A stretch of 37,738 bases of DNA from a virus: positions 1 through 37,738 of IMG/VR virus record IMGVR_UViG_3300022825_000007. One strand, written 5' to 3'. How positions within the stretch are numbered: position 1 is the stretch's first letter; each line of letters opens with the position of its first letter. The notes below the pieces were generated by a model that did not search any database, was not told the origin of the DNA, and was given only the letters and a program-made list of their open reading frames with translations. A program made the position numbers and the translations under genes. Below, piece by piece: positions 264-36,727 of the stretch.

Positions 264-713
264 GTGCAACGAATGGAGTCAATCAGATTCACCGTACCAG
301 GGGAGCCAGTTCCCCAACCCCGGCAACGGCACAGGATCGTAGGGAAAGGACCAAAGGCGTTCGTCCAGAACTACACGCCCGCAAAACATCCGGTCAACGA
401 TTATAAGCAGGCGATCCAGAAAGCAGCTTCGAGAGTGTTTGCTGGCGAACCTGTTGAATCACCGTTGCTATTGGAAGTCGTGTTCATCTTTCCCAGGCAG
501 GCAAATAAGAACTGGAAAACAAAACCGATGCCGCGATACCTGCATCATCAGAAGCCGGATATAGACAACCTGCTGAAAGCTTTAAAAGACGCTCTGAATA
601 AACACGTTTGGAAGGATGACTCGCAGGTCTGCAAGGTCTCGGCGACGAAATGGCGAGCAGCAGGCGACGAGCAACCACGGACTGAAATCACAATTAAACC
701 AATACACGGGTAA
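264..713 (+). CDS. rusA: RusA family crossover junction endodeoxyribonuclease
   Basis: A 149-residue protein that looks like RusA, the phage-type Holliday junction resolvase that cuts four-way DNA junctions as a Mg-dependent dimer. Visible family features are the opening IRFTVPGEPVPQPRQRHR, the strand LLLEVVFIFP and the acidic signature KPDIDNLLKALKDALN followed by KDDSQV, which supplies the catalytic aspartates. The GTG at 264 is favoured over the ATG at 273 because AAAGGAG ends about 10 nt upstream of it. Length fits the family (about 120-150 residues). It probably resolves recombination or replication intermediates before packaging. The specific cleavage site preference cannot be read from sequence. 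Confidence 0.9.
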   Translation: MQRMESIRFTVPGEPVPQPRQRHRIVGKGPKAFVQNYTPAKHPVNDYKQAIQKAASRVFAGEPVESPLLLEVVFIFPRQANKNWKTKPMPRYLHHQKPDIDNLLKALKDALNKHVWKDDSQVCKVSATKWRAAGDEQPRTEITIKPIHG

Positions 714-738
714 ATCAATAAAGGCAGGAGGCAGAATA

Positions 739-1362
739 GTGGTAGTATTGAGTTTATGTGACCGCACTGGCGTAATGGTGCGACCGTGGGCAGATGCAGG
801 ATATGAGTGCGTGTGTGTTGACTGGCAGTATCCAGCGGGGGAAACGATTGACGGGAATATAACTTTTGTTGGTGCAGATCTTCACACCTGGATCCCTCCC
901 TATGGCGAGGACTACGCGATTGTGTTTGCCTTCACTGACTGCACAAACCTGTCTGTCAGTGGTGCGCGATGGTTTAGGTCAAAAGGGCTGACAGCATTAA
1001 ATCAGGGGGCAAACCTGTTCGGGCGAGCAAAGTCAATCTGCGAGGCAATTGGAGTGCCGTACCTGCTAGAGAATCCGGTATCAACTCTGGCCAGCTATTA
1101 CCGCAAACCAGATTACACATTCAACCCCTGTGACTATGGCGGCTACCTCAATCCAAACGGGGACGCATACACTAAGAAGACATGCCTCTGGACTGGCGGC
1201 GGGTTTTTAATGCCGGAATCGAAAGGAGTGGAGCCGGTCGAGGGAAGCAAGATGCACCTGATGCCACCAGGGGAAGACCGTGCGAACTTGAGAAGCGTAA
1301 CACCAGCAGGCTTTGCGCGGGCTGTATTCGAGGCAAATAACATCCCCCTATCCAACCCCTGA
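739..1362 (+). CDS. Divergent DNA (cytosine-5) methyltransferase-like protein
   Basis: A 207-residue protein whose GTG start sits 7 nt after AGGAGG. The first 30 residues (VLSLCDRTGVMVRPWADAGY then VDW) resemble the SAM-binding motif I and II region of Dcm-type enzymes, LLENPVSTL at about 109-117 resembles the ENV motif VI, and FTDCTNLSVSGARWF at about 65-79 lines up with the motif IV loop that normally reads PPC. Here the catalytic Cys68 is kept but Pro-Pro is replaced by Thr-Asp. It is shorter than host C5 methyltransferases (over 300 residues) and lacks an obvious target recognition domain, as do related small phage proteins. It may modify phage DNA or may have lost activity. Confidence 0.7.
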   Translation: MVVLSLCDRTGVMVRPWADAGYECVCVDWQYPAGETIDGNITFVGADLHTWIPPYGEDYAIVFAFTDCTNLSVSGARWFRSKGLTALNQGANLFGRAKSICEAIGVPYLLENPVSTLASYYRKPDYTFNPCDYGGYLNPNGDAYTKKTCLWTGGGFLMPESKGVEPVEGSKMHLMPPGEDRANLRSVTPAGFARAVFEANNIPLSNP

Positions 1363-22012: not shown

Positions 22013-22422
22013 TCCGGGGGCTGCGAGTCCGAGAATTTTACACACATTACGTCGCAATCAAACGGGAAGAAGCAAACAGAATCAACTGGCAATTTCAGGC
22101 TGCGGCACACATGAAGTGGAAGCCTGAGGATGCCAAGAAGGTTTATTTAGACATCCAGAAGCTGAATAACATCGGCTTCGAATCGCAGTCGGTTTACGAG
22201 ACGGTCGCTCATCAGGACCGCATCAACATGATCGGCTCTGCAATTCACGACCAGGGGATTGAATGGATTGAAAAACATCCGAAGGAAGTCGAGTGGCTGA
22301 AGTCTGTTGGCTTAACGCCACAGGAAGCAGAGCAGCAGTTTAAGGATTGGATTACCAATGTCAGGTCAAGTTTCGATCACTCTGAACGACGGCACGGATT
22401 CGGTGGAAATCGCCGGTCCTGA
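21889..22422 (+). CDS. T-type extension of the tail chaperone (-1 frame)
   Basis: The -1 frame is open from the slippery site to the stop at 22420-22422 and yields a 309-residue GT fusion. It has no ATG, GTG or TTG until 22111, yet coding-like sequence clearly starts earlier (VLASAYGWTPGVIRGLRVRE, EFYTHYVAIKREEANRINWQ), so it must be entered by frameshift. That block resembles the T part of siphophage GT proteins (xxxxGWxPxxIxxL...), which binds soluble tube protein and delivers it to the tape measure complex. It overlaps the next gene by 65 nt. Confidence 0.75.
   Translation, partial: LTYRGDPEGTPRVNRRDLFSACWHVQWESVLASAYGWTPGVIRGLRVREFYTHYVAIKREEANRINWQFQAAAHMKWKPEDAKKVYLDIQKLNNIGFESQSVYETVAHQDRINMIGSAIHDQGIEWIEKHPKEVEWLKSVGLTPQEAEQQFKDWITNVRSSFDHSERRHGFGGNRRS
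22001..22020 (+). repeat. GC hairpin holding the G stop codon
   Basis: CCCCCGG and CCGGGGG form a perfect 7-bp stem whose loop CGTAAT contains the zero-frame TAA. It is over 100 nt from the slippery site, so it is not the classical stimulator. It may influence termination or G to GT ratio. Confidence 0.6.
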
Positions 22423-24490
22423 CGGATCAACAGAGCCCCGCTTACTTCCCATGTGGGTGACTGGCCAGTCTGCAAATCATACCCGGTACGTTTACCGAAA
22501 GACCCAGCGTAAGACGTGGCAATGGCGGCTCCCGCTTGGCAATCTGACTTACGCAAATCAGAAGGATCTAGAGAACTTCTTTACCGATTCTGTCAAAGGT
22601 CCGACAAATACTTTTACGCTAACTTACACAGATGGGACTGTCTATGCGGGTGTTCGATTCATTGATACGGAATTGCGCTGGCAGCGTGATGATTCCAACA
22701 CTTTCAGCACTACGATTACTCTTGAATTACAAGGGCAACCAGGAGCGTCTGGGACGACCACCACGACAACGACTACGACAACCACGACCACAACAACCAC
22801 GACTGCGGAGCCGACGACGACACCCCAGCCGACAACGACCGAAGGGGCGACAACAACCACGACCACCACAACAACGCTCGCGCCCGCAACGACGGCTGAG
22901 CCGACCACGACGGGTGAACCCACGACAACAGAAGGCGCGACGACGACAGGTGATCCAACCACAACGGATGGCCCGACCACGACTGATGGCGGGACTACCA
23001 CAACGGGCGAACCGACAACGACAGCCGAGCCGACGACGACCGAAGGCGGCACGACCACTGAGGGTGGGACTACTACAACGACCACCACAACAACGCTCGC
23101 GCCCGCAACGACCACCACAACAACGCTCGCGCCCGCAACGACTACCACGCTGGGACCGGCAACGACAACCACAACGGGAGCACCTGAGGCATTCGGGGCG
23201 TGCATCTCGTGTGACGAAGATGGCGACGAAGTGTTTTATGATGCCCTGAGCTACAGTGTCAGCAGCTTAGATTCTGAGACTGCTTGGACTGATAAAGATG
23301 GCGGTACTTCAAACTTCACATTCAAGGCGGGTAGCGGCTATGCGTTCGCGGTCAATTCCGACGATGGAACGAACGGTCCCTATCGCGCTTTATGTAAGTC
23401 AAACTCTGGCGATGACAGCTATGACTTCACGGTGTGTGCCAGTATTAAAATTCCATCGGCCCTGACGAATAGTGAGCGTGCTGGTTTCTTCTTCCGGTAC
23501 GTTGACAGTGACAATTACCTGCTTGCCATTATGGACCCCGACACAAACAAGATCCAGCTACGAAAGATGGTAAGTGGCACAGAAACGCTGGTCAGCGAAG
23601 CAGCCTTCACCTGTGATGATGGTGGGTTCCACATTCTGAAGCTGGTTGTTTTTCACGACACATTCCTGCTGTCGGCAGACGGAACACTTCTTTACGAAGC
23701 CGATTCAGGGATCACTTTCAATCGCGGTTCTACCGTGCATGGGATTTATAATTCGCGATCATCGGGAGCCACCTCTACATCGTCTGATTCTGTACTGTTC
23801 AATTATTATCGGTATGACAATTTCAGAACGACTCTGAATGACAACTTCACTGGAAGCGGCGACCTAACTGCCCACGTTCCAGACACGGCGTTAGTCGGTG
23901 CGGAATGGCATGGTGCTGCTTATGAAATCGACACGGTTTACGCGGCACGGACGGCAACGGGCGACGACATTGCACTGGCTGTGATTGACAGCGGCGTGGA
24001 CGTGTCTCAGGACTGCTGTGTCATGAGGATTCAATCCAATATGCAGGTGGCAGTTACGGTTGGCGGCAAGGTCGGAATCGTGTTTCGATACTTTGACAGC
24101 TCCAACTATTACGTTGCATACCGGGACAGCGTGAATGACGTGTTGGTGCTGCAAAGGGTGACGGGCGGGGAAGCGACTACTATCGGCTCTTATTCCGTAA
24201 CTGTGGGTGGTGCTGAGTCGGGGTTCGGAGGGCTCGCCATTTATGACGATGGATCTACTATCATCGTGAGTGGTGGTGATGCTGGATTAGCACTCATAAC
24301 AGCTACGAATGAAACGCTGTTTAATGACCAAACCAGAGTCGGACTGTATTCGGCACCAGAATCAAGCGGTTGGTCTACGTCAGGAAGTCGGCATGATTAT
24401 CTGACGGTTAAGTACATGGGGCCTGAGCCTGCTTTAGTCGCAGCGACAACCACAACGACTTCCGCAGCCACGACGACGGGGGCGCCGTAA
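22358..24490 (+). CDS. Tail surface protein with mucin-like Thr-rich linker and LamG-like domains
   Basis: A 710-residue protein. Residues 1-128 form a beta-rich domain (QVSITLNDGTDSVEI; TFTLTYTDGTVYAGVRFIDT; STTITLELQG) like a baseplate or tail-attached module. Residues about 131-277 are a Thr-rich stretch built on TTT, GEPTTT, TLAPATT and TTEG units. The rest holds two concanavalin/LamG-like domains (RAGFFFRYVDSDNYLLAIMD and KVGIVFRYFDSSNYYVAYRD are the equivalent strands) that usually bind glycans, then a short Thr-rich end. It lies between GT chaperone and tape measure, an unusual place for an adhesin. It may decorate the tail and bind host surface sugars. Confidence 0.75.
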   Translation: MSGQVSITLNDGTDSVEIAGPDGSTEPRLLPMWVTGQSANHTRYVYRKTQRKTWQWRLPLGNLTYANQKDLENFFTDSVKGPTNTFTLTYTDGTVYAGVRFIDTELRWQRDDSNTFSTTITLELQGQPGASGTTTTTTTTTTTTTTTTTAEPTTTPQPTTTEGATTTTTTTTTLAPATTAEPTTTGEPTTTEGATTTGDPTTTDGPTTTDGGTTTTGEPTTTAEPTTTEGGTTTEGGTTTTTTTTTLAPATTTTTTLAPATTTTLGPATTTTTGAPEAFGACISCDEDGDEVFYDALSYSVSSLDSETAWTDKDGGTSNFTFKAGSGYAFAVNSDDGTNGPYRALCKSNSGDDSYDFTVCASIKIPSALTNSERAGFFFRYVDSDNYLLAIMDPDTNKIQLRKMVSGTETLVSEAAFTCDDGGFHILKLVVFHDTFLLSADGTLLYEADSGITFNRGSTVHGIYNSRSSGATSTSSDSVLFNYYRYDNFRTTLNDNFTGSGDLTAHVPDTALVGAEWHGAAYEIDTVYAARTATGDDIALAVIDSGVDVSQDCCVMRIQSNMQVAVTVGGKVGIVFRYFDSSNYYVAYRDSVNDVLVLQRVTGGEATTIGSYSVTVGGAESGFGGLAIYDDGSTIIVSGGDAGLALITATNETLFNDQTRVGLYSAPESSGWSTSGSRHDYLTVKYMGPEPALVAATTTTTSAATTTGAP
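22748..23185 (+). repeat. Thr-codon-rich repeat region
   Basis: A run of ACN codons interrupted by GAG-CCG, GGT-GAA-CCC and GCG-CCC units. A 30-bp unit beginning ACCACCACAACAACGCTCGC occurs in three exact copies: 22862-22891, 23081-23110 and 23111-23140, the last two in tandem. Slippage or recombination between units probably changes linker length. Confidence 0.9.
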
Positions 24491-27400
24491 TGAGTTCTAC
24501 CATCCACGCGCTCAGGGCAATCGTCAGCACGAAAACGGGTTCGTTCGTTCGTGGCATGAAAGCCGCGATCATGGCGACCAGGCAACTGCGTACACAGTGG
24601 GTGTCTGCTGCAAGAGACACGGCTTCGGCTGGGGCAAGGATCGTCGCCGTCATTGGTGCCATTGGCCTGATCTCTGCCAGTACGTTTGCGAAGTTCGAGC
24701 AGACGATGACGCGGGTTGGTGCTGTTACAAAGACTCTGGGAACTCGTGACTTCGCATTACTGGAGAAAGCAGCACGCGAGGCCGGAAAAACCACAAAGTT
24801 TTCTGCGACTCAATCCGCAGAGGCTATGGAGAACCTAGGGCTGGCCGGCCTTAAAACAAATGAGATCATGAAGGCCCTGCCAGGCACGCTTCAATTAGCA
24901 TCTGCCGCGCAACTGTCGATTGGTCAGGCCGCAGACATTGCAGCAAAAACCATGCGTGCTTATGGCATGGAAGCGGAAGAACTGACGCGCATCAATGACA
25001 CGCTCGTTGCGACGTTTACAACGTCCAATACCGATTTGGTCCAGCTGGCAGAAGCACTAAAGCCTGTAGGCCCACTGGCAAGGACATTGAATGTCTCACT
25101 GGAAGAGACTTCGGCGGTGCTTGCGAAACTCGCCGACAAAGGCTACCAAGGATCGCTTGGAGGCACAGCCTTACGCAATATTCTAGCAAAACTTGCTGGT
25201 GCTGCTCCCGAAGTTACGAACAAACTGCGCAGGATGGGGATTGAGACCCTCGACGCATCCGGCAACATGCGGCCTCTGTTTGACATCCTGCAGGAGATTG
25301 AAGCTGCTGGGATGTCGGGTGGTAAAATCATGGAGCTGTTTGGGGCGCGTGGTGGCCCCCAGATGGCTGCTCTGTTGTCAACGGGAACAGCAGAACTCAG
25401 ACGTTACACTCATGAGCTGGAAAACAATCAGGGTATTGCCCGGGAACTCGAGCAGTCGAATTTGAAGACACTGGCCGGTCGTTACGCCATCCTAAAGTCT
25501 TCTGTTAAAGATGTGGTTATATCGGTTGGCAAGAAGCTGAATCCGACACTGCTGCAGACGATTTCGACGATAGAAAAATATCTCGACGCACACCGAACAG
25601 ATATCGTTGAGAAAATGTCCGGTGTGGTCATTGGCCTTGTTAAGGCGATTGGCGATGTAGTTGTCTGGCTCGATAAAGCAGCACCAGCATTTAGCGAAGC
25701 CTATTCCATGATGAAAAAATTCATGGGTCCGGTTATTGAATTTCTCCTGAATAATCCAAGGTTGCTATCTGCACTGATGGCCTTGAAGCTCGCTGCCACG
25801 TTGGGTGTTACGCAGGCGATAACGAGTCTGGGGACAGCATTGATCAGCACAGGCAACGCCTTGGTTTCTATGGGGAGTTCCTCAGTGCTGGCAGGAACGA
25901 AACTGGGCGGGATGCTGACAGCAACCAACCTTCTGAAGGGTGGGTTGGTCGCTCTCGGACTGGCACTGATTGCGCTCGGTGCTAAGTATATTTACGACAA
26001 TAACGAGTTCATCAAGAAGTGGAACGAAGAGACTGAGCGGGCTATTCAGCTAAACAGCGAACTGCAACGAATCACTGACAAAAGGTTTAATCGAAAGTTA
26101 AATAACATCCTCTCTATAGAAGACCCTACAGTTCGCATCGAGAAACTGAAAGAGATTCTAAAAGAAACAAACAACCAAGCAGGCTCTTATCAAAAGCAGA
26201 TAGAAGCTGCGCAGAAAAGAGTTGAAAGGCTGGATGTTGCCTGGAGAAGGTTGTCTGGAAACGGAATCCTGAAGGGGGCGAAGGAAGAGCTTGAAGAGCT
26301 GAATGAAGGTCTTAAGAAGGTACAACAGACACGGGATGGCCTCGCTGGCCATATCGGCGATGCCAGCTTCGAGATGGAAAAAAACCAGCGTAAGCCGCAG
26401 CAGAAAGGTGCTGGCCCCGGTAATGTCGGTGCGTTCGACGATTCAGACCAGCCCGCTATTAACATGCCGTCTGAAGTCGAATTGAAACAGGGTGAAATTT
26501 CGGACATCCTTAGAGATGCAAAGCGTGATCAGGTTGACCAGAAGACGCCAGGGTTTTCAAGGATTCGAGACTTTATTGATTTGGGACCAACGCAAGAGCA
26601 GTTTCGTGAGTTCCTTGGAACCGTCGAAGGGATGACGCCTCGTTTGCAGTCTACGTTCTCAAACGTATTTAGTCGCCTGCAGGCCGAAGGGCAACTTACA
26701 AATGAGAATATGGACATACTCGCACAGCGTGCTGCAATGCGAGCCAATGAAGTCATTACCAAAGAACAGGAGAAAGAGCAAAAGCAAAAGCAGGTACAAG
26801 ACGCGTTGGATAAGTCGCTGGATAATCTAGGACAAAAGTTAATGGGGTTAAAAGCGGAACTTCCTAACGAAGAGTTTAGTTCGCTTGCTTCTAGATTTAT
26901 CAGCCTACGACAGATGCTGTTCTCTGGGAAAATTGGACTGCAGCAATACGAAAGCGGAATCGCTTCACTAACGAATCAGACTCAGAAGGCTGCTGAAGCT
27001 GCAAACGAGGCAGCCGCAGCCGAAGAACGCAAACGATTGATCCAAGGCAAGTTCAGCCAGAAGGATTTCAAGACCGCTCTGGAAGATCGCATCATCGCAT
27101 TCAGACAGCAGCAGTTTTCGAATGCTGTTGAACAATCATTCAATGCCTTATTCGGTTTTAACAACCAGGTCGGTTCTGTCACGGAAGGATTTGGCAAGCT
27201 TCGCACTGGTCTTGATGGATTTGGAGAGCGTCTTGGTTCTGCTGCTTCTGGGATCTCGCAGAGTTCCGAGCAGGCAATGCAAACGCTGAGATCGTTCTAT
27301 TCATCGGCACAGGGACAGGCCGCGAATCTTCGTAATCAGATCACGCAACTTGAGCAGAATATGACGCTGGTGGATACGTACTCCGCGCGTAAGCGAATCC

Positions 27401-27639
27401 AGGACATGATTGACAACCTGTTTAATCAGATCGACACCATCACGCAGGCACCACCACCAACCTTTTCCGGCGTGACGAATTCCAGTCTGTTTAATGATCC
27501 GGGCCTGCAGACTGTAAAAACTCAGACGAATAAGATCGATCTCAATTTCCCGAACATCACAAAGCTGAATCAGAATGACATTCCAAACATCTATGATGCT
27601 CTTGAGCAAGAAGGCAAAAGACGGGGGAAATCGTTTTAA
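24490..27639 (+). CDS. Tail tape measure protein
   Basis: A 1049-residue protein starting in TAATG overlap. Residues about 55-290 hold the TP901-type tape measure core (FAKFEQTMTRVGAVTKTLGT; KTTKFSATQSAEAMENLGLA; LASAAQLSIGQAADIAAKTM; LADKGYQGSLGGTALRNILA). Hydrophobic segments lie around 415-505 (LMALKLAATLGVTQAITSLG; LVALGLALIALGAKYIYDNN), and the rest is long coiled coil rich in Lys, Glu and Gln. It sets tail length and is ejected into the cell envelope with DNA. At the usual 1.5 angstrom per residue, the tail would be about 150-160 nm long. Confidence 0.93.
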   Translation: MSSTIHALRAIVSTKTGSFVRGMKAAIMATRQLRTQWVSAARDTASAGARIVAVIGAIGLISASTFAKFEQTMTRVGAVTKTLGTRDFALLEKAAREAGKTTKFSATQSAEAMENLGLAGLKTNEIMKALPGTLQLASAAQLSIGQAADIAAKTMRAYGMEAEELTRINDTLVATFTTSNTDLVQLAEALKPVGPLARTLNVSLEETSAVLAKLADKGYQGSLGGTALRNILAKLAGAAPEVTNKLRRMGIETLDASGNMRPLFDILQEIEAAGMSGGKIMELFGARGGPQMAALLSTGTAELRRYTHELENNQGIARELEQSNLKTLAGRYAILKSSVKDVVISVGKKLNPTLLQTISTIEKYLDAHRTDIVEKMSGVVIGLVKAIGDVVVWLDKAAPAFSEAYSMMKKFMGPVIEFLLNNPRLLSALMALKLAATLGVTQAITSLGTALISTGNALVSMGSSSVLAGTKLGGMLTATNLLKGGLVALGLALIALGAKYIYDNNEFIKKWNEETERAIQLNSELQRITDKRFNRKLNNILSIEDPTVRIEKLKEILKETNNQAGSYQKQIEAAQKRVERLDVAWRRLSGNGILKGAKEELEELNEGLKKVQQTRDGLAGHIGDASFEMEKNQRKPQQKGAGPGNVGAFDDSDQPAINMPSEVELKQGEISDILRDAKRDQVDQKTPGFSRIRDFIDLGPTQEQFREFLGTVEGMTPRLQSTFSNVFSRLQAEGQLTNENMDILAQRAAMRANEVITKEQEKEQKQKQVQDALDKSLDNLGQKLMGLKAELPNEEFSSLASRFISLRQMLFSGKIGLQQYESGIASLTNQTQKAAEAANEAAAAEERKRLIQGKFSQKDFKTALEDRIIAFRQQQFSNAVEQSFNALFGFNNQVGSVTEGFGKLRTGLDGFGERLGSAASGISQSSEQAMQTLRSFYSSAQGQAANLRNQITQLEQNMTLVDTYSARKRIQDMIDNLFNQIDTITQAPPPTFSGVTNSSLFNDPGLQTVKTQTNKIDLNFPNITKLNQNDIPNIYDALEQEGKRRGKSF

Positions 27640-30377
27640 TGGCTAGGACGCTCGCATCTGCAACAGAGACGGAGAAAGAGAAAGTCGCAGGGGCATTCCC
27701 GCGATACATCCTGCAGGTTGATTTTGGTGGCGAAGTCGGCATCAAATATTATTCAGAAGAACTTTTGCACGGTCCGGTTCTGTGCGAGGGTCGCATCGAT
27801 AGCTGGGGAGAATTACGACTCAACGCAGAACCGGGCAAGATCGGTGGATTTGATCAACTGACAATCACGTTTAACGATGCTGACAGAGAGTTGCGAACGC
27901 TGTTTGAAACTTATCCGGGTGTGCAAAATAAAATTGCCTATGTCTATCTCTGGTTTGATGGGACTGCATGGGATGACAAACTGGTTATGTTTGCTGGGAT
28001 TCTGACAACCCCGCTGTCATGGACAGAGAACAATGTGCAATGGTCCGTCAGTATGAAGGGCTTGCAGGAGCACTTTGATAAATCAATCGGGCGACTGATC
28101 AGCCAAGACGACTTCCCAGAGGTGAACTGCTCAAGCTGTGACGGAAAGATGATGCCGATTGTTTACGGCAATCCGTGCAAGCGTGTTCCCGCATGTGTGA
28201 TTGATCGACCTGGAGAGGGGTATCTTGGATCAGCGTTTGGCCAGCAGGATGAAACTGTCGTTATCCACGACGAAGCGAGCAAGCTGTATTTTACAACTGG
28301 ATCACAAATAACTTTGATTATCGGTTACCCAAATAACTTTGAGTCAGTTGTGGGCAGTTTTGCGAATGAGACATCACGGTTTTTTAATGTGACATCCAGA
28401 AGCAGCATCCTTTACAGCGGCAATGTATCGGGCATATACGCAGCAGAAGGCCAGCGATACATCATGATCAATCAATCAGTCCTCGCAGATCCCACGTTTA
28501 CCCTCAGGGGCAATCCGCTCTGGTTGAACAATGGCAGCGGCTGGTATGAAACGATGATTACAACCTGGGATTATCAAGGAAGCCAGGTTGCGATAGTTCA
28601 AGAGCCTCCTGACTTTACGGCCAGTTCGTCAACAGAATTTAAAATCGGTTCAGTTGCTCAGACTAAATTTAATTGGACTCCTGGCGCACCCGTTTACGAA
28701 CTTGGGACTTTCAAATACCTACTAAACTATTTGCCATCAGAGGAAGTCGTGAGGATCGAGGCTCTTGCATCATCAGGGTCTGCAGGAGGTGGCCAAACAA
28801 GGGATGTGTTTTTAACTTACAACACAAATGCCTATTCGGTAAACCTGAACGACAAGAGCCACAACGCGACGATCGGTAGGGAAACTGACGATCCCGGCCT
28901 GACTACGCTGACGCTTAATTCACCTCCAACTGTTTACGGTTTTCCTGAAGAAACAATCTATGCCACAATCAAAGGTATTATGAACGATGAAGGCGATGCG
29001 ATCGAAGATCCTGCCGACATCATGAAGCATATTTTAGAGAGTCCGTTCATAGGCAACATTGCAGACGAGTACATTAACAACGATTCATTTTCCCTTGCTG
29101 CCAGCCAGGTTGTTACCAAGATGGGATTTGCAATCCGGGAAGAAAAGAAACTCAATGAACTGATCAGCGAGCTGGCAATGCAATCGAACTGCATTGCTTT
29201 CTGGGATACAGGCCAGATTTATTTACGGTATTTAGAAAGCGATTATTCTAACCATCAGGCAGTGCTGAACCCAGACAATGTACTTAATGGCTCGCTTTCA
29301 ATCGAGATGACGCCTGTTAAAGACTATCCGACTGAGATCGTTTCGAAGTTTCGACAGGCTATTCCGAGCCCGGAGCAAAGGCTATCGCGGTCGAGCGATG
29401 AAGCGATCGCGTCTTTTGAAAAGAAGCGAACCGAGATGGATCTCTGGGCTTATCAGTACCCGACGTCCGTTGCGATCGTTACCGAGAATTGGCTGCTCTA
29501 CCGTCTGAAAATGAACAAGTTGATCAAGATCAGTTCGTTCCTGAATTGCTCACACGTACAACCGGGAGATGTTGTGCTGCTGAATTACGCCGACGGAAAC
29601 GGAGGATTGGTCTTAGACGCAACCTATGGTCGCGTGCGGTCTATCTCTCATAGGTTCGGTCAAGTCGAACAGGGAACAATCGACTCAATTGGCATGGTCG
29701 TTGAAACAAACCTCTGGCCATCCACCGTAAATGTATCTACGCCGGAGGATCAAGTCTGCGCAAGAATTATCGGCAATGCTGAAGATGGCGGCAGGGGGAA
29801 TCCAGATTTTCCATCCGTGGGAGTTCCGGTCACAACGACGGGTGAGCCAACAACGACAACGACAGGTGAGCCGACAACGACGGCGCCGGGGACAACAGTC
29901 GCGCCGACGACAACGGCGAGTCCGTTTCCTGCAATTTGGTGTGGTCTGCCGATGACCCCAGGAAATCCACCAGTTGTAAATCCCGGCGCAACGTGCGGGC
30001 TTGACTTTAGTGATTTTGTATCTGATGGTTGTGTCAGTCCTGAAACAGAGGCAGCATTTGCAACAAATCATACCTTTGGTGTGGCTGATGTAGTGCACAC
30101 ATTTTTTAGACAAATCAGTTTTCAAAAAGAAATCGGAATCTATGGTAATATCACAATGAACTTTGGGTGTTACTCTCCATCGCATGTTTCCGTTGGAATA
30201 ATCATTATTATGTATGAAACCCATGACCCTTACGGTCCGGAACATATCGTAACGTATGAACTTCAAACGTCAGCCGGTGGCCTATGGGCAAGTGGAACCG
30301 CAGACGTCAATGCGTTACCAATTCCGAATCTATGCGGAAACATTCCGGAAACAGTTGATTTCACAGCAGGGGGTTAG
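27639..30377 (+). CDS. Large distal tail / baseplate hub protein with Thr-rich linker
   Basis: A 912-residue protein coupled to the tape measure by TAATG. Residues 1-180 resemble the first part of distal tail proteins (GRIDSWGELRLNAEPGKIGG; NKIAYVYLWFDGTAWDDKLV; MFAGILTTPLSWTENNVQWS). The middle (about 180-725) is beta-rich and ends in hub-like strands (SHVQPGDVVLLNYADGNGGL). Residues about 727-763 are a mucin-like linker with GEPTTT repeats, and the last 150 residues are a separate Cys-containing domain. A receptor-binding or adsorption apparatus role fits. The shared GEPTTT linker links it to the 22358 protein. Confidence 0.8.
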   Translation: MARTLASATETEKEKVAGAFPRYILQVDFGGEVGIKYYSEELLHGPVLCEGRIDSWGELRLNAEPGKIGGFDQLTITFNDADRELRTLFETYPGVQNKIAYVYLWFDGTAWDDKLVMFAGILTTPLSWTENNVQWSVSMKGLQEHFDKSIGRLISQDDFPEVNCSSCDGKMMPIVYGNPCKRVPACVIDRPGEGYLGSAFGQQDETVVIHDEASKLYFTTGSQITLIIGYPNNFESVVGSFANETSRFFNVTSRSSILYSGNVSGIYAAEGQRYIMINQSVLADPTFTLRGNPLWLNNGSGWYETMITTWDYQGSQVAIVQEPPDFTASSSTEFKIGSVAQTKFNWTPGAPVYELGTFKYLLNYLPSEEVVRIEALASSGSAGGGQTRDVFLTYNTNAYSVNLNDKSHNATIGRETDDPGLTTLTLNSPPTVYGFPEETIYATIKGIMNDEGDAIEDPADIMKHILESPFIGNIADEYINNDSFSLAASQVVTKMGFAIREEKKLNELISELAMQSNCIAFWDTGQIYLRYLESDYSNHQAVLNPDNVLNGSLSIEMTPVKDYPTEIVSKFRQAIPSPEQRLSRSSDEAIASFEKKRTEMDLWAYQYPTSVAIVTENWLLYRLKMNKLIKISSFLNCSHVQPGDVVLLNYADGNGGLVLDATYGRVRSISHRFGQVEQGTIDSIGMVVETNLWPSTVNVSTPEDQVCARIIGNAEDGGRGNPDFPSVGVPVTTTGEPTTTTTGEPTTTAPGTTVAPTTTASPFPAIWCGLPMTPGNPPVVNPGATCGLDFSDFVSDGCVSPETEAAFATNHTFGVADVVHTFFRQISFQKEIGIYGNITMNFGCYSPSHVSVGIIIIMYETHDPYGPEHIVTYELQTSAGGLWASGTADVNALPIPNLCGNIPETVDFTAGG

Positions 30378-30378
30378 G

Positions 30379-31257
30379 TTGAAGAAAAAACTCACAATTG
30401 GAATGGCGGTCTATGATGATGTGCGGGGCGTCTGGTTCACGATTCAGGACATCAGGAAGCACTACCCTGAATTGATGGATCAAGTCGAGTTCATCGTCGT
30501 TGACAACAATCCGAATTCCAGCCACGGCGAAGCCACGAAGGATTATGTCGAGAACTGGGTAAACAACGGGCGATACATCCCGTTCGAAAAAGGCGGGACC
30601 GCAGCGCCACGGGATCACATCTTCCGGGTCGCAAGCACACCGGCAGTGCTTTGTATGGACTCGCATGTGCTGCTTGATAAGGACGTGTTGCCCCGACTGC
30701 TGGCGTGGTACGACCTGCACCCCGAAACAAAGGATCTGCTTCAAGGCCCGATGCTGTATGACGGTTTGGACGGCAACATGGCAACGCACATGAATGAAGT
30801 CTGGCGGGCCGGGATGTATGGCACATGGGGATCTGACCCGCGTGGGCATAACCCCTATAGCCCACCGTTCGAAATCCGAATGCACGGACTCGGGCTATTC
30901 AGTTGCCGCAAGGATGCCTGGCTGGGCTTTAATCCCGACTTCAAAAAGTTCGGCGGCGAGGAAGGATACATTCACGAAAAGTACCGAACGCACGGGCGTA
31001 AAACATGGTGCCTGCCGTTCCTGCGCTGGAATCACTGCTTCATCCGACCGGGAGGCCCGAAGTACCCTATCTGCAATTCGTACAAGCTGCAGAATTATCT
31101 GATCGGCTGGCGGGAACTCGGGATGAACCTCGACGATCCGGTTAATCATTTTCGCCTGTATATGGATGACGCGGAAATCAGACGCATCATTCAAAGCCTG
31201 GGAATCGATTACGAATTAAAACCGAAAGTGAAACATGAAAACGCTGTGCCAGTGTAA
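30379..31257 (+). CDS. GT-A glycosyltransferase, GT2/GT27-like (DSH motif)
   Basis: A 292-residue enzyme. TTG 30379 is chosen because AGGGGG ends 5 nt upstream and the frame overlaps only noncoding bases. It has a GT-A nucleotide-sugar fold: TIGMAVYDDVRGVWFTIQDI, VEFIVVDNNP, and LCMDSHVLLD with DSH at 94-96. Later come KKFGGEEGYIHEKY (192-200) and LPFLRWNHCFIRPGG (213-226). DxH, then WGGEN/E, then xGHxFR in this order is the signature of GT27 polypeptide GalNAc-transferases, which start mucin-type O-glycans. GT2 enzymes usually have DxD, so DSH is informative. The true substrate is unknown. Confidence 0.8.
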   Translation: MKKKLTIGMAVYDDVRGVWFTIQDIRKHYPELMDQVEFIVVDNNPNSSHGEATKDYVENWVNNGRYIPFEKGGTAAPRDHIFRVASTPAVLCMDSHVLLDKDVLPRLLAWYDLHPETKDLLQGPMLYDGLDGNMATHMNEVWRAGMYGTWGSDPRGHNPYSPPFEIRMHGLGLFSCRKDAWLGFNPDFKKFGGEEGYIHEKYRTHGRKTWCLPFLRWNHCFIRPGGPKYPICNSYKLQNYLIGWRELGMNLDDPVNHFRLYMDDAEIRRIIQSLGIDYELKPKVKHENAVPV

Positions 31258-33718
31258 AGCCCCCGGATTCTGCCCGCGTCATCTGTGCGAGAAATCGCAA
31301 GCAGAGGTTCGCCAGTGCCAGACCGACTGGGTGCACTACCACTATCAGGAGCGAAAAACGGACAATCTGCAGCCGGGCGGTTCACACGTTAAGCGTGACC
31401 CGATCCGCTGCGATGTGATCATGCCGTACCACGCAGGAACCCTCGCTTACGTTGAAGAGGCGGCACGTTCGATTCTAAACCAGAACAACGCGGAAGTGAT
31501 CTTGCATCTGGTCGGCGACGGGATTTCCCCTGAAGACGGAATTGATATGCCGGGCGTGAGGAAGTATTTCACGCGCAAGCAGGTTGGCCCCTATGCCGCA
31601 CGGATGATGGTCTTTGACTATCTGGAGACCGACTTTATTCTGATGGCTGACTCAGATGATATCTACCATCCGAACCACTGCTTCTATGCCGTTGCCTGTT
31701 TGATGGACACGGGGCGTGATCTGTTCGGGGCCAGCATGGAACAGTTCGTTGATTACCGGGATGGCTCCTGCGATGTGCTGAAAGAGACATTCAGACAATT
31801 CCCGATCATTACATCAGGCAGGCCAGAGAAATCCGTACCAGATGGGAATATCGTACATGCGACCTTGGCAATCACTAAGACGGCTTTTGCGGCGTTGAAT
31901 GGATATTATGATAGCGTTGTCGGTGCAGACACGCACCTGGTGAGGCGGGCCAGCGAAGCGGGTTACAAGTCGTTTATCTCTGATAAGGTTGTTGCACAAC
32001 GGCGGCTGCATCGAACATCATTGACCAATTGCGCAAAGCTGGGAATCAGGTCTACTCAACGCTGGAAGATCAGGCAGGATCTGGAAGAGCACTTCAAGCG
32101 GATTCAGTCAGGCGAACCCGTGGAGTCATTCGGAAGGCTGGATAAGTGGATTAAGTCGGACCTGTTGATTGTGGGCTCGGCCCCCAGAGACACTGCGCCA
32201 GACATCGAAAAGAGCGATTACGATATCGATGTGTTTATCCCCTATTACAAAAATCTGCATTTAGTTCCCCAGACGATTGATTCGATTCTCTGGCAACACG
32301 GCGTGAAGCCGTTTATTCATCTGGTCAATGACTGTTCGCGAGAAGACGACACGGAATTAAAGCGGCGGTACGGGTATCTGCCAAACGTGGCCTGGTACAA
32401 AACAAAAAGGAATGTCGGGCCTTATGCGATTGCAAACAGCCTCTTTTATCACACGAGGACGCGATTTATCGGCATTGCAGACAGCGACGACATTTACCTC
32501 CCGGATCACTTTGGTACTGCTATCTCCGACATGGAAGGGAACAAAGCCGATGCCTGGGGAAGCGTGATGACTCAGTTTCTGAACCCGCTGGAGTTGCACA
32601 CAAAACATAATCTATCGACAATCGAAAAGCACCCGATAGCCGACTCTGGAAGAAAAGTCGGTCTGCCGTATCCCCGGCTGGTTAACGGCACGATGGTGAT
32701 CCGTAAAAGAACTTTCGAAGCGTTAAATGGATTTAATGGCAACTGGCAATGTGCAGCCGATACGGAGTTCTCTCAGCGACTCCAATTTCCGAGCGACGTT
32801 GGCGGGCGTGTTTTCTTCTCGGACCAGGTGACAGCACTTCGAAGAATATGCAGCAACAGCCTTTCGAATTCCGACGGTAAGTACGGCTTGAAATCTTCGG
32901 AGCGCGACCAGATCAAAAACGAAAGCGTGGCCCGATATCAACTCTGGAAAAGGCAGGGACTGAATGATCCTCGGCAGCATGGAACCCTCGACACTCAGGA
33001 TGATGTATTGGATTCGGACTATCGGTTGACCAGCACCAACAGAGACAAAATAACGGCCTGTATTGCGACGATCCCCCGGCGAGTCTATGCGCTGGAGAAA
33101 ACCATCGCGTCTCTGATCAATCAGGTAGATGCGATCAAGGTGCATTTAAACGATTATCAATTCGTCCCGGAGTTTCTGAAGAATCCGAAAATAGAACTTG
33201 TTTTCGGGGACAATTCAGCAATGAGCTGTCGAAAGTTTCTTTGGTCTGATAAGTTGAGCGGGTTTATTTTTACATGCGACGATGACTTGATTTACCCGCC
33301 TGAGTATGTGGTGAAGATGGCCGAAGCTATCACCAAGCATAAATGTATTGTCTGCGCTCATGGAAGCAGATTGCCACCTGGCAAGATTGAAAGCTTTTAT
33401 AAAAACCGTACCGTCTACGATGCACGGCGGGAAGTTCCGTATGATGTCCGGGTGGACGTGCCGGGAACCGGAGTAATGGCATGGCACACTGATCACGTTC
33501 AGATCAAACCTGAAGATATAAATCTTCCGGGGATGGAAGACATCGCGGCTTATTGTTTTATGTTCAATAACAGTGTGCCGGGTGTTGTAGTAAAACATCA
33601 GACTGGGTGGTTTGTGTCATCAACGCATAAAAATGACGGTGGGCTTTACAGCGATTCAATCCGCGACGACAGAAGGGAAACGGAGTTAATCAATGCCCAT
33701 AAAAACCATCGGGCGTAG
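31235..33718 (+). CDS. Three-domain glycosyltransferase (tandem GT-A domains)
   Basis: An 827-residue protein. It starts with a Cys motif (CQCKAPGFCPRHLC, 5-18, then CQTDWVHYHYQER). Domain 1 (about 58-285) has DVIMPYHAGT and ADSDDIYHP (DSDD 139-142). Domain 2 (about 330-575) has DVFIPYYKN and ADSDDIYLP (DSDD 416-419). Both contain GPYA, an ALNGY/ALNGF loop and an LRRI/RRLHRTS end, so they are duplicates. Domain 3 (about 605-805) has ACIATIPRRVYALEKTIASL and FTCDDDLIYPPEY (DDD 682-684), a different GT-A type. The three could add successive sugars. Start overlaps the previous gene by 23 nt. Confidence 0.85.
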   Translation: MKTLCQCKAPGFCPRHLCEKSQAEVRQCQTDWVHYHYQERKTDNLQPGGSHVKRDPIRCDVIMPYHAGTLAYVEEAARSILNQNNAEVILHLVGDGISPEDGIDMPGVRKYFTRKQVGPYAARMMVFDYLETDFILMADSDDIYHPNHCFYAVACLMDTGRDLFGASMEQFVDYRDGSCDVLKETFRQFPIITSGRPEKSVPDGNIVHATLAITKTAFAALNGYYDSVVGADTHLVRRASEAGYKSFISDKVVAQRRLHRTSLTNCAKLGIRSTQRWKIRQDLEEHFKRIQSGEPVESFGRLDKWIKSDLLIVGSAPRDTAPDIEKSDYDIDVFIPYYKNLHLVPQTIDSILWQHGVKPFIHLVNDCSREDDTELKRRYGYLPNVAWYKTKRNVGPYAIANSLFYHTRTRFIGIADSDDIYLPDHFGTAISDMEGNKADAWGSVMTQFLNPLELHTKHNLSTIEKHPIADSGRKVGLPYPRLVNGTMVIRKRTFEALNGFNGNWQCAADTEFSQRLQFPSDVGGRVFFSDQVTALRRICSNSLSNSDGKYGLKSSERDQIKNESVARYQLWKRQGLNDPRQHGTLDTQDDVLDSDYRLTSTNRDKITACIATIPRRVYALEKTIASLINQVDAIKVHLNDYQFVPEFLKNPKIELVFGDNSAMSCRKFLWSDKLSGFIFTCDDDLIYPPEYVVKMAEAITKHKCIVCAHGSRLPPGKIESFYKNRTVYDARREVPYDVRVDVPGTGVMAWHTDHVQIKPEDINLPGMEDIAAYCFMFNNSVPGVVVKHQTGWFVSSTHKNDGGLYSDSIRDDRRETELINAHKNHRA

Positions 33719-33896
33719 CCTCTGGAACCGCCTCACTAAAGTGGGACACGTCGAATATGACGGATTCGTCGAGGTAAACGGCCTGCGGTTCACAAGCCTG
33801 CGAACCATGTTCAATGGCAATCCCCCAGATATTCAATTCGGTCTGTATGGGGACTGTCGATTCACAAGTAACACAATCAGAGAGTTCAAATGTTAG
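33693..33896 (+). CDS. Small protein of unknown function
   Basis: A 67-residue protein after GGAG, starting 26 nt inside the glycosyltransferase gene and overlapping the radical SAM gene by 7 nt. It has a basic N-terminus (MPIKTIGRSLWNRLTKVGHV) and a beta-rich middle (VEYDGFVEVNGLRFTSLRTM). It is too small for an enzyme. Its position between glycosyltransferase and radical SAM enzyme could mean a carrier or substrate peptide for the radical SAM protein, but no precursor-like motif is seen. Confidence 0.55.
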   Translation: MPIKTIGRSLWNRLTKVGHVEYDGFVEVNGLRFTSLRTMFNGNPPDIQFGLYGDCRFTSNTIREFKC

Positions 33897-34690
33897 AAAT
33901 CCCGAATCTTGAAATTCACGCGACCTACGCTTGCAATCTGCACTGTAAAAGCTGCTCACACTTTTCGGATATGCAGGTGGGAAAAAACGTTCCCCTGGCT
34001 GAGATCAGCGCCCAGATGATGCAGTGGAGCGGCCGTCTGGCTCCGAAGTTCTTTTCGATCCTGGGAGGCGAACCGACGCTAAATAAAGAACTCTGCGGAA
34101 TCGTGCACGAATGCCGGAAGCAATGGCCCCTCTCGCAATTGAGACTGATCACAAACGGATTCTATTTACACAGACACCCTGACCTGCCGAAAATCCTGCA
34201 AGACACTGGCTGTGATCTGGCCGTTTCTGTGCATCACGACGGCGAAGAATATACCGAGAAGCTGAAGCCGGTGCGGGAACTACTTGACCAGTGGTCTGCT
34301 CAATATAAATTCAAGTTGACGTTTCGGACATCGGCGAAAACATGGCGCACGACATTCGAGGGTTATGGATCTGAGATGAAACCGTTTACCGACGGAGACC
34401 CGGAAAGCAGTTACAAGATCTGTGTTGCGAAACATTGCCCGCAAATATTCGGGGGGAAAATCTGGAAATGCCCACAGTTGGCGTATCTGGGACTGGTTGA
34501 TAAAAAACACAAGCTCGGCGACGAATGGCAGAAGTATCTATCGTATCGCCCACTATATCCGACCTGCTCAGACGCAGAGTTGCAGCAGTTCTTTGCCACG
34601 AAAGCAGAGCCGGCGTGCGCCATGTGTCCGGCCCATCATCGGCATTTTGAAATTTCCAATCCGTTGCATCCTCTGGAGCAGGTTAAATGA
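33890..34690 (+). CDS. Radical SAM enzyme
   Basis: A 266-residue protein with the radical SAM signature ATYACNLHCKSCSH (Cys15, Cys19, Cys22 for the 4Fe-4S cluster), FSILGGEPTL (about 55-64, SAM methionine-binding GGEP) and a LRLITNGFYL strand. The C-terminal part has KICVAKHCPQIFGGKIWKCP and CAMCPAHHR, a cysteine set that could bind an auxiliary cluster (SPASM/Twitch-like). Such enzymes occur in surface polysaccharide and peptide-modifying clusters. The reaction cannot be assigned. It lies between glycosyltransferases and is coupled to the next gene by ATGA, so a sugar or protein-modifying role is likely. Confidence 0.88.
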   Translation: MLEIPNLEIHATYACNLHCKSCSHFSDMQVGKNVPLAEISAQMMQWSGRLAPKFFSILGGEPTLNKELCGIVHECRKQWPLSQLRLITNGFYLHRHPDLPKILQDTGCDLAVSVHHDGEEYTEKLKPVRELLDQWSAQYKFKLTFRTSAKTWRTTFEGYGSEMKPFTDGDPESSYKICVAKHCPQIFGGKIWKCPQLAYLGLVDKKHKLGDEWQKYLSYRPLYPTCSDAELQQFFATKAEPACAMCPAHHRHFEISNPLHPLEQVK

Positions 34691-35481
34691 CATTACCAAA
34701 GCTCGTCTGCCTCTGCTGTACTTATCTCAGGCCGCAACTGCTGGCATCCATGATTCGTGACTTCGAGTCGTTCGACTATCCAGACGATAAGAAGCAGCTC
34801 TTGATACTGGACGATGTGGGGCAATACCCCTCGGAGCCAAGTGGCCCCGGCTGGTCTATCATCTCGGAGAAAAACAAGTATCCCACTTTGGGAGAAAAGC
34901 GAAACGCTGTAGCCGCCATGGCTCCCGCTGATGCTGACGGCTTTGTTGTCATGGATGATGATGACGGTTACTGCGCATGGACACTCAGGGCTCATTCTGA
35001 GGCGTTACAGAGAGCGGACGTTTCCCAGCCGACGCGAGTGTATTCAGAAGCGAATTCAGACAAGCGGCTTTTACTGGATCGCGGCAAAGGAATCTTTCAC
35101 GGGTCGTGGGCATATACCCCGGAAGCATTTAAAAAAACAGGAGGCTACACGGCCAGAGATAGCGGCGAAGATCTCGACCTGATGCGAGCATTCAGACGCA
35201 CGCAATGCCAGATTGCTGATCCGTGCGAGAAGTATCCCCCCTATTACGTTTATCGTTGGCAGCACACTGGATCTTATCACGTTTCTGGCAAGTCCCAAAA
35301 AGGACTGGTACTGCTACGCGATGACTGGAAGAAAATGCCGAAGGTTGAAACGCTTCCGGATCCAGCAGAACGCAATTGGTCACTGGCTGCCAGAGAGTTT
35401 CTCGGCTGCCTGAATGGGGTTGATGTCTCGGAATACTGGATAAAAAACAAACCAGAACTACTCAAAAGGACTGAACCCTGA
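34687..35481 (+). CDS. Glycosyltransferase, GT-A (family 2-like)
   Basis: A 264-residue enzyme. PKLVCLCCTYLRPQLLASMI opens the GT-A domain, QLLILDDVGQYP follows, GEKRNAVAAMAPADADGFVV and the catalytic metal site VMDDDDGY (90-93) come next, and SGEDLDLMRAFRR (about 159-171) is the usual ED acceptor-site motif, with YVYRWQHTGSYHVSG after it. Length suits a single-domain GT2 enzyme. ATGA couples it to the radical SAM gene. Donor and acceptor are unknown; neighbours suggest a joint pathway. Confidence 0.82.
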   Translation: MTLPKLVCLCCTYLRPQLLASMIRDFESFDYPDDKKQLLILDDVGQYPSEPSGPGWSIISEKNKYPTLGEKRNAVAAMAPADADGFVVMDDDDGYCAWTLRAHSEALQRADVSQPTRVYSEANSDKRLLLDRGKGIFHGSWAYTPEAFKKTGGYTARDSGEDLDLMRAFRRTQCQIADPCEKYPPYYVYRWQHTGSYHVSGKSQKGLVLLRDDWKKMPKVETLPDPAERNWSLAAREFLGCLNGVDVSEYWIKNKPELLKRTEP

Positions 35482-36188
35482 TGCTGTTTAGCTGCTACTT
35501 CACAGGCTTTCCCGATCCCCAGGGTAAAGGCCAGATGCAAATTGACGATGACACCAAAGTGGAACCACTCATCAGCGATGTGGAACGCTTGGGGATTGAG
35601 CTAATCATCTTTCACGACCTGCTCTCTGATGAGTTTGTTTCCCGCTGGTCAAGCGAACTGGTTTCCTTTTCTCGGGTTCCGGTCTCGCCGATCTATTCCG
35701 TCTGCGATTACCGGCACTTCTGTATTCGCGACTGGCTCGAATATCACGAGTATGTAACCGTCTGGTACTGCGATCTGTTTGATGTGCGAATGAACCGCAG
35801 ACCGGAATCAATGCTGGATCTGTTCCCGGAGCACGATCTATTTCTGGGTATCGAACGCATCGAATGGAAGAATAACAAGGCCACTCCAGATGGCCGATGG
35901 ATGGTCAATAAATTCAAGCAGGCTTACGGTGATGTTCCGCCCGAGTCACTGAACCAGACGATTCTGGCAAGCGGTCACTGGGGCGGCAAGTATCACATTG
36001 CAAAGAGCTTTGTTAATACGCTATGTGGTGAATTCGAGCGGGTCAAGGCAGCTCGTAAGAACTTGAACATGGCTGTCTACAATCAAGTTGCCTATCGGTA
36101 CTTCCCGTTTTGGGCTGAGGGGGCTCCGTTCAATTCCGTGTTTCGAAAATTCGATTACTCGGCAGATGTTGTTTTTATCCACAAATAA
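35481..36188 (+). CDS. Putative GT-A glycosyltransferase
   Basis: A 235-residue protein joined to the previous gene by TGATG. YVTVWYCDLFDVRMNRRPES has a D-x-x-D type metal motif (CDLFDV), LFLGIERIEW and MVNKFKQAYG follow, and LNQTILASGHWGGKYHIAKSF resembles the NxGxxGG acceptor loop of GT8/GT77-like enzymes. The N-terminus (MLFSCYFTGFPDPQGKGQMQ) is short and has no membrane segment. The fold assignment is moderate; the family is uncertain. It belongs to the same cassette by overlap. Confidence 0.6.
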   Translation: MLFSCYFTGFPDPQGKGQMQIDDDTKVEPLISDVERLGIELIIFHDLLSDEFVSRWSSELVSFSRVPVSPIYSVCDYRHFCIRDWLEYHEYVTVWYCDLFDVRMNRRPESMLDLFPEHDLFLGIERIEWKNNKATPDGRWMVNKFKQAYGDVPPESLNQTILASGHWGGKYHIAKSFVNTLCGEFERVKAARKNLNMAVYNQVAYRYFPFWAEGAPFNSVFRKFDYSADVVFIHK

Positions 36189-36199
36189 GGAAGCGGACT

Positions 36200-36727
36200 A
36201 TGTCTTTTTATGATGCAGTGGCACGGGTCTGGAATCAGGATCGCGACTACTCACAGGGGGCAATCGGCAAGGAAGTGTGGGACGCTATCGCGACCCATAT
36301 TAAACCGAATTCGAAAACGCTGGAATTTGGTTGCGGACTGAGTACCCTGCTCTTTAATTATGCGGGACACCATCACACGGCGATCGACAATAATCAGAAA
36401 TGGATCGATCTGGTAAAGTCGCACGAACTGACAGTACGAACACAGATCGTTCATTCCGCAATAAACAGTCTCGGCTTTTATCTTAATGTCCCCCCCGGGC
36501 CTTATGATTGTGTTCTGATCGACGGGCCAGCCGGGGAAGGCAAACGCAGCGGCGTGATTGAGATTATCGAATCGCTGGTCAAGGAAGGCGCGGTCATTAT
36601 CGTGGACGACACGAACCGGCCCAAGGAAAGGGCGCTGTCGGAAGCAATTCAGAATCTGCTCTGTGCTTCGCAGGTAATCGAGGGTGACACATCGCATGGC
36701 CGCAAGTTCGATCTGATCATTGTTTGA
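36200..36727 (+). CDS. Class I SAM-dependent methyltransferase
   Basis: A 175-residue protein with motif I TLEFGCGLSTLLF (40-52), HHTAIDNNQKWIDLVKSHEL as motif II region, and PYDCVLIDGPAGEGKRSGV with AVIIVDDTNR as motifs IV-V. This layout resembles Methyltransferase-24/FkbM-like enzymes that methylate sugars or small molecules. AGGAAG precedes the ATG. Next to five glycosyltransferase domains, sugar O-methylation is the natural inference. A short remnant of another protein follows directly. Confidence 0.85.
   Translation: MSFYDAVARVWNQDRDYSQGAIGKEVWDAIATHIKPNSKTLEFGCGLSTLLFNYAGHHHTAIDNNQKWIDLVKSHELTVRTQIVHSAINSLGFYLNVPPGPYDCVLIDGPAGEGKRSGVIEIIESLVKEGAVIIVDDTNRPKERALSEAIQNLLCASQVIEGDTSHGRKFDLIIV

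Follow-up and report, generated by a model that had tools for sequence, protein, structure and literature searches.

Genomic context of the glycosyltransferase gene

The locus analysed here raises the question of which acceptor is sugared by a glycosyltransferase that a phage encodes in its tail region, and of how close this enzyme is to the polypeptide GalNAc-transferases of family GT27. In animals, the latter initiate mucin glycans, adding alpha-GalNAc, with UDP-GalNAc as donor, to peptide Ser/Thr. The window, i.e., the whole stretch of DNA analysed, is a 37.7-kb virus record in which the genes follow the order portal, major head protein, connectors, tail proteins, tape measure, a 912-aa protein and the glycosyltransferase (Table 1). 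The position of the tape measure gene identifies the glycosyltransferase neighbourhood as the tail module. An initial annotation had placed the gene at 30379–31257, directly after a tail protein with a GEPTTT linker, and these coordinates were found to be right. The upstream tail gene ends with a TAG stop (30375–30377) and the TTG start codon begins one base later, while an alternative longer frame, from an ATG at 30256, would overlap the 3' end of the tail gene. The N-terminus of a relative in the phage contig L008 (79%), MKKLTIGMAV, is in line with the TTG start. Near the beginning of the phage window (5496–6554), a Cys-rich protein is encoded that carries a thioredoxin domain (PF00085, E 3.1e-9).

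The 912-aa tail protein itself gave no significant family match; its L008 homologue (68%) matches PF13550 (Phage-tail_3, E 6.6e-6). L008 is a sister phage that shares the tail proteins, the glycosyltransferase and most of the downstream cassette. In L008 the two tail proteins carry their Thr linkers at unchanged positions, whereas the domain past the linker is different in the 710-aa homologue and strongly diverged in the 912-aa homologue, an arrangement that fits a stalk joining an anchor to a distal domain that can be exchanged. Several Thr codons are used in both linkers, indicating that these are not plain DNA repeats and are kept as protein. As for the cassette, the radical SAM gene and its small neighbour (window 33693–34690) are missing from L008, where the homologue of the 827-aa protein is only 321 aa in length; the cassette is thus modular.

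Table 1. Features of the window, in order of position
Feature	Position	Strand	Evidence or remark
DNA methyltransferase	616–1362		phrog_757, E 7.7e-66
Tail protein, 710 aa, long Thr-rich linker and distal domains; second proposed acceptor	22358–24490	+	before tape measure gene
Thr-rich linker of 710-aa protein	22679–23227	+	90 T in 183-aa stretch
Tail tape measure protein	24490–27639	+	phrog_1533, E 3.8e-80
Tail protein, 912 aa, Thr-rich linker; proposed acceptor	27639–30377	+	directly upstream of the glycosyltransferase; L008 homologue PF13550
Thr-rich linker of 912-aa protein, VTTTGEPTTTTTGEPTTTAPGTTVAPTTTAS within	29787–29963	+	17 T in 59-aa stretch
Shine-Dalgarno-like GCAGGGGG (GGGGG stretch) ahead of TTG 30379	30366–30373	+	sequence
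GT27-like GT-A glycosyltransferase gene, 292 aa	30379–31257	+	TTG start; stop at 31257
DSH motif, residues 94–96; predicted metal/nucleotide-sugar site	30658–30666	+	D94, H96 invariant
GGEE motif, residues 192–195	30952–30963	+	E194, E195 invariant
WNHCF, residues 217–221; H219 third metal ligand by superposition	31027–31041	+	invariant; truncated model
827-aa protein, two GT2 domains and weak third match; proposed chain extension	31235–33718	+	PF00535, E 2.3e-25
Radical SAM protein, cassette member, absent from L008	33890–34690	+	PF04055, E 2.1e-9
264-aa cassette protein, possibly GT-A-like	34687–35481	+	no Pfam match; kept in L008 (71%)
235-aa glycosyltransferase-like protein	35481–36188	+	phrog_1579, E 8.8e-6
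Methyltransferase (Methyltransf_24); could cap glycan	36200–36727	+	PF13578, E 1.9e-7

Conservation of the active-site motifs

To the initial annotation, the enzyme displayed a DSH / GGEE / WNHCFIR arrangement, the last motif covering residues 217–223. This arrangement is real: in an alignment of 103 rows, made up of viral and bacterial relatives, D94, H96, G192, E194, E195, W217, H219 and F221 do not vary in any row that covers them (for E195, Glu in 101/101). The motifs thus belong to an active site common to the whole family and have not arisen by chance. The remaining motif positions are more relaxed, the Ser of DSH (S95) being S or C in most relatives and the Cys of NHC being replaced by R in nearly all of them.

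Relatives are encoded in 259 viral stretches and at 65 genome loci; the viral sample analysed consisted of the best 80 viral loci and is therefore biased toward close relatives. No relative was retrieved by tblastn of the family against 50,697 named phage records, a search in which a portal-protein control matched 11 records, and none was found in plasmids. The family thus has hundreds of members in environmental viral contigs, yet, by tblastn, apparently none in the named phage records.

Structural comparison with GT27 enzymes

The AlphaFold (AF2) model of the 292-aa enzyme had a pLDDT of 93.7. When this predicted model was searched against PDB with Foldseek, the best 50 rows were all GT27 polypeptide GalNAc-transferases (E 2.9e-14). 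Similarly, the top 28 rows retrieved by VIA were all GT27 enzymes, with Z from 23.5 (GALNT2) to 20.4 over about 265 aligned residues, and the best non-GT27 match of the full-length model was RmlT (Z 20.0, rmsd 4.9). Residues 1–221 were also modelled alone, so that the last residue reads out a residue pair. The cut model maps onto residues 134–361 of GALNT2 in every GALNT2 entry listed, with F221 corresponding to F361; the same residue falls on GALNT1 346 and GALNT10 372. Given the pairing of F221 with F361, H219 of the model superposes on the metal-binding H359 of GALNT2. The structural comparison proposed in the initial annotation therefore ranks GT27 enzymes first with both Foldseek and VIA, the metal-ligand His included in the superposition. 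For the core 1–221 alone, GT27 reached Z 20.8 vs. 18.7 to 19.1 for RmlT (19.1), B4GALNT1 and chondroitin polymerase, so that the lead of GT27 over other families is small as far as the modelled GT-A core is concerned.

The GT27 segments taken from PDB read DSH, GGLF, WGGEN (GALNT2) or WGGEQ (GALNT10), and GHVFR or GHIYR. The spacing between Glu and His is 25 residues in both enzymes (E334 to H359 in GALNT2, E194 to H219 in the phage protein). Alignment by hhalign with a three-sequence GT27 segment paired DSH, GGE and His as expected with weak scores (P 0.03 to 0.15) and, owing to these weak statistics, served for residue pairing only; the correspondence of D94/H96 with GALNT2 D224-S-H226 comes from this low-scoring alignment alone.

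Sequence profiles and family assignment

At the sequence level the enzyme matches PF00535 (GT2) with E 2.6e-9 and 37.6 bits against a curated cut-off of 23.3. The family HMM retrieved no GALNT chain from PDB at E <= 10, and phmmer with the single 292-aa protein gave no PDB match. With the family profile, only N-terminal parts of TarP, TarS and K4CP were matched, the best being TarP (E 1e-4), in a region restricted to the common nucleotide-binding part. No C-terminal ricin-type lectin domain was detected by Pfam, the 292 aa being taken up by the catalytic fold.

A further difference lies in the residue following GGE, which is Glu (E195) in the phage family and Asn or Gln in GT27 (GGEN in GALNT2, GGEQ in GALNT10), the latter in keeping with retaining chemistry. 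The sequence of B4GALT1 at the corresponding place is GGEDDD, with Asp where the phage enzyme has E195; B4GALT1 is an inverting enzyme and the first Asp of this motif is its catalytic base. The invariant E195 hints at an inverting enzyme, which may form a beta linkage, and speaks against the retaining chemistry of GT27. GT60 members, which also carry D-x-H and acidic motifs, were considered as candidates and discarded, with no match to PF11397 in the window at E <= 10 and matches of the controls in 2 genomes.

Compared with GT27 enzymes (GALNT1, 2, 4, 7, 10 and 12, with Toxoplasma and Drosophila relatives), the phage protein shares the GT-A fold, with the best structural score, as well as D-x-H, GGE, the distal His, its spacing from Glu and the Thr-rich partner sequences; it differs by its size, its phage or bacterial origin, the missing lectin domain, E195 and the lack of a sequence-level match. 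The last three differences led us not to file it as a GT27. The GT27 likeness advanced in the initial annotation hence stands for the fold, the D-x-H and the distal His but not for family membership, and its interpretation of a phage that would sugar its own tail receives strong, though circumstantial, backing from the link with Thr-rich proteins, which proved general across the family (see below). There is good support for a GT27-like mode of action on Thr-rich proteins, and the family, a new GT27-like one of phages and bacteria, probably O-glycosylates mucin-like linkers. On the basis of these comparisons, GT27-like is the most fitting name for a glycosyltransferase whose activity, sugar, linkage and acceptor are predicted ones. 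A literature search on GT27 in phages, HprK-rel-A and Thr-rich phage tails found nothing on point.

Thr-rich neighbours in viral loci

A Thr-rich ORF was defined by at least 30% Thr over 30 residues. After deduplication, 26 of 42 viral loci have such an ORF directly upstream of the enzyme (position -1), compared with 4.5 on average and at most 12 in 5000 permutations, and Thr-rich ORFs are uncommon away from the enzyme within these loci. As controls, other PF00535 genes of the same phage records were used: only 3 out of 26 of these GT2 genes had a Thr-rich ORF at -1 (Fisher p 4e-5). Raising the threshold to 40% Thr, the counts became 24/42 for enzyme loci and 1/26 for the other GT2 genes (p 5e-6). 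These p-values are to be taken as indicative, since a simple greedy ORF caller was used and the loci share ancestry. Two further candidates for a viral control, the 827-aa protein and the neighbouring glycosyltransferase from L024, were abandoned, too few loci being available. The link to Thr-rich proteins is thus general for the family and much stronger than one adjacency. At about one fifth of the viral and three fifths of the bacterial loci no Thr-rich ORF occurs within 2 kb; there, the partners may be encoded elsewhere or the acceptors may vary.

The Thr-rich partner proteins are diverse. Most have no family match; Calx-beta, laminin G, fibronectin III, beta-helix, tail spike and tail families are each hit by individual members. 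In 22 Thr-rich proteins the sequence ends in a tag, C-x(n)-C-[N/K/L]-x-L-x-[F/Y]. All 22 occupy position -1 or -2 relative to the enzyme, and the tag occurs in 0 of 627 non-Thr-rich ORFs; it is possibly a recognition or anchoring signal. The window's own two tail proteins are devoid of this tag. Tag-bearing loci include L021, L027, L029, L037, L041 and L055.

Bacterial relatives

In several bacterial relatives the glycosyltransferase is joined to an HprK-rel-A-like domain (for L135, TIGR04352 with E 5.6e-24, which is below the curated cut-off), and the neighbours include PqqD-like and NTP_transf_5 genes. Often, the gene directly upstream codes for a small protein that begins with a twin-arginine-like sequence, contains a conserved W..P...PAHA stretch and ends in a Thr-rich tail, e.g., AAPTTTAAPTTT. 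A twin-arginine-like leader, defined by a narrow pattern, was detected in 17 of 57 bacterial loci, in the majority together with the Thr-rich tail. At -1, 15 of 55 loci carry a Thr-rich ORF (2.9 expected, maximum 9). This context supports, as a second line, Thr-rich acceptors. In a fresh sample of 297 genomes from the order of Labrys sp. KNU-23, seven matched and six were examined in detail; no Thr-rich neighbour stands beside the enzyme in the Labrys-type loci L215–L217 and L213 likewise yielded none, a limit to what can be claimed for bacteria.

This gene group, with the HprK-rel-A-glycosyltransferase fusion, the PqqD-like and NTP_transf_5 genes and the Tat-like Thr-rich protein, was observed at L135:6687-10310, L127, L101, L102, L108, L123 and L133, the last from an environmental Rhodococcus erythropolis. 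It hints at what the orphan HprK-rel-A system may do. With the HprK-rel-A/PqqD system (TIGR04352, TIGR04353) the phage protein has in common that several of its bacterial relatives belong to such fusions and neighbourhoods, but it consists of the glycosyltransferase domain alone, and neither family was matched by the ten tail and cassette phage proteins scanned.

Proposed function and alternative explanations

Our preferred reading, which we consider fairly likely to be correct, is that of a soluble phage GT-A enzyme resembling polypeptide O-glycosyltransferases and sugaring Thr residues in the linkers of the phage's own tail. Host-supplied UDP-sugar would be bound by a metal held by D94, H96 and H219, and an extended Thr-Pro linker would attack it through a Thr hydroxyl, with E195 possibly serving as base. 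In this way sugar would be transferred, in the cell and before tail assembly, to Thr in the mucin-like linkers of the 912-aa and 710-aa tail proteins. The downstream glycosyltransferases may then extend the glycan and the methyltransferase may cap it. Sugared Thr-Pro linkers would form stiff, extended, protease-resistant stalks keeping the distal domains off the tail. The glycans would perhaps also have a shielding effect, as reported for mycobacteriophage capsids and tails (PMC12363180).

Precedents exist for single elements of this scheme. In Streptococcus mutans, PgfS is encoded right after the adhesin Cnm and is needed to modify it, Cnm having a Thr-rich region, and the Pgf modification stabilises the adhesin (PMC5856776). 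The Pgf system (PgfS with Cnm and WapA) shares with the phage locus the glycosyltransferase gene directly following that of an adhesin with a Thr-rich region, whereas PgfS is membrane-bound and acts with membrane partners and an epimerase; the likeness is one of gene order and Thr-rich targets, for which the Cnm-PgfS pair serves as a working precedent. Mycobacteriophages are described as using enzymes of their own, among them Che8 gp110 and Corndog gp38, to glycosylate their capsid and tail tube proteins (PMC12363180). These differ from the phage family, which gave no tblastn match in the named phage records, and the text consulted on mycobacteriophages mentions no Thr-rich linker.

The mycobacteriophage case, together with the location of the gene within the tail module, would also fit an enzyme acting on other virion proteins, such as capsid, tail tube or tail tip domains, and not on Thr linkers. 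What recurs beside the enzyme is nonetheless defined by its Thr-rich composition, the other domains being widely different or none, so that the Thr-rich sequence is the common denominator; we therefore hold this alternative to be quite improbable. Somewhat less improbable, but still unlikely, is the modification of a polymer on the host surface, such as teichoic acid, O antigen or capsule, which would change receptor sites or block superinfection and make the tail neighbourhood incidental. TarP, TarS and RmlT, the GT2 wall teichoic acid enzymes, are indeed the closest solved bacterial enzymes, TarP being the best PDB match by profile and RmlT the best non-GT27 one by structure, and inverting GT2 enzymes carry an acid at the base position, like E195. 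Unlike the phage enzyme, they have a D-x-D-type metal site and a polymer acceptor. Over the full length of the phage model they score below GT27 and, as said above, the TarP match covers the common nucleotide-binding part only. Moreover, it is rare for the remaining GT2 genes of these phages to lie behind Thr-rich genes, while the family studied here often does, in phages and bacteria alike, and the cassette proteins scanned had no match to flippase or lipid-carrier families.

Least probable is that the enzyme sugars modified bases of the phage DNA. Some phage glycosyltransferases do so and the window encodes a DNA methyltransferase (Table 1), but no Tet/JBP family match was found in 26 records, a weak argument given that the control was silent as well, and the bacterial relatives examined adjoin HprK-rel-A, PqqD and nucleotidyltransferase genes.

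Eukaryotes are seen as the domain to which mucin-type O-glycosylation belongs. More tentatively, and with doubts that slightly outweigh our confidence, we propose that phages and bacteria share an undescribed form of it, in which a GT27-like, possibly inverting cytoplasmic enzyme would read Thr-rich sequence. Its substrates would be the mucin-like tail proteins of aquatic phages, many with a C-x(n)-C-N-x-L-x-F/Y tag, and Tat-exported Thr-rich bacterial proteins within the HprK-rel-A/PqqD system. If so, prokaryotes would have the same solution, a GT27-like enzyme tied by genome position to Thr-rich proteins, and the long Thr runs kept in the tail proteins of many environmental phages would be explained. 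A function would be assigned to the HprK-rel-A/PqqD gene system, with a testable role for HprK-rel-A together with PqqD, and a soluble bacterial enzyme would become available for glycoprotein engineering.

Two further observations concern single loci. At L104:1302-3920 the relative is an 872-aa ORF with a Thr-rich stretch of its own (63% T in 30 aa), in which acceptor and enzyme are possibly fused. At L085:7344-7934 a sulfotransferase gene (PF03567) is located directly upstream of a 504-aa relative, from which a sulfated glycan might result.
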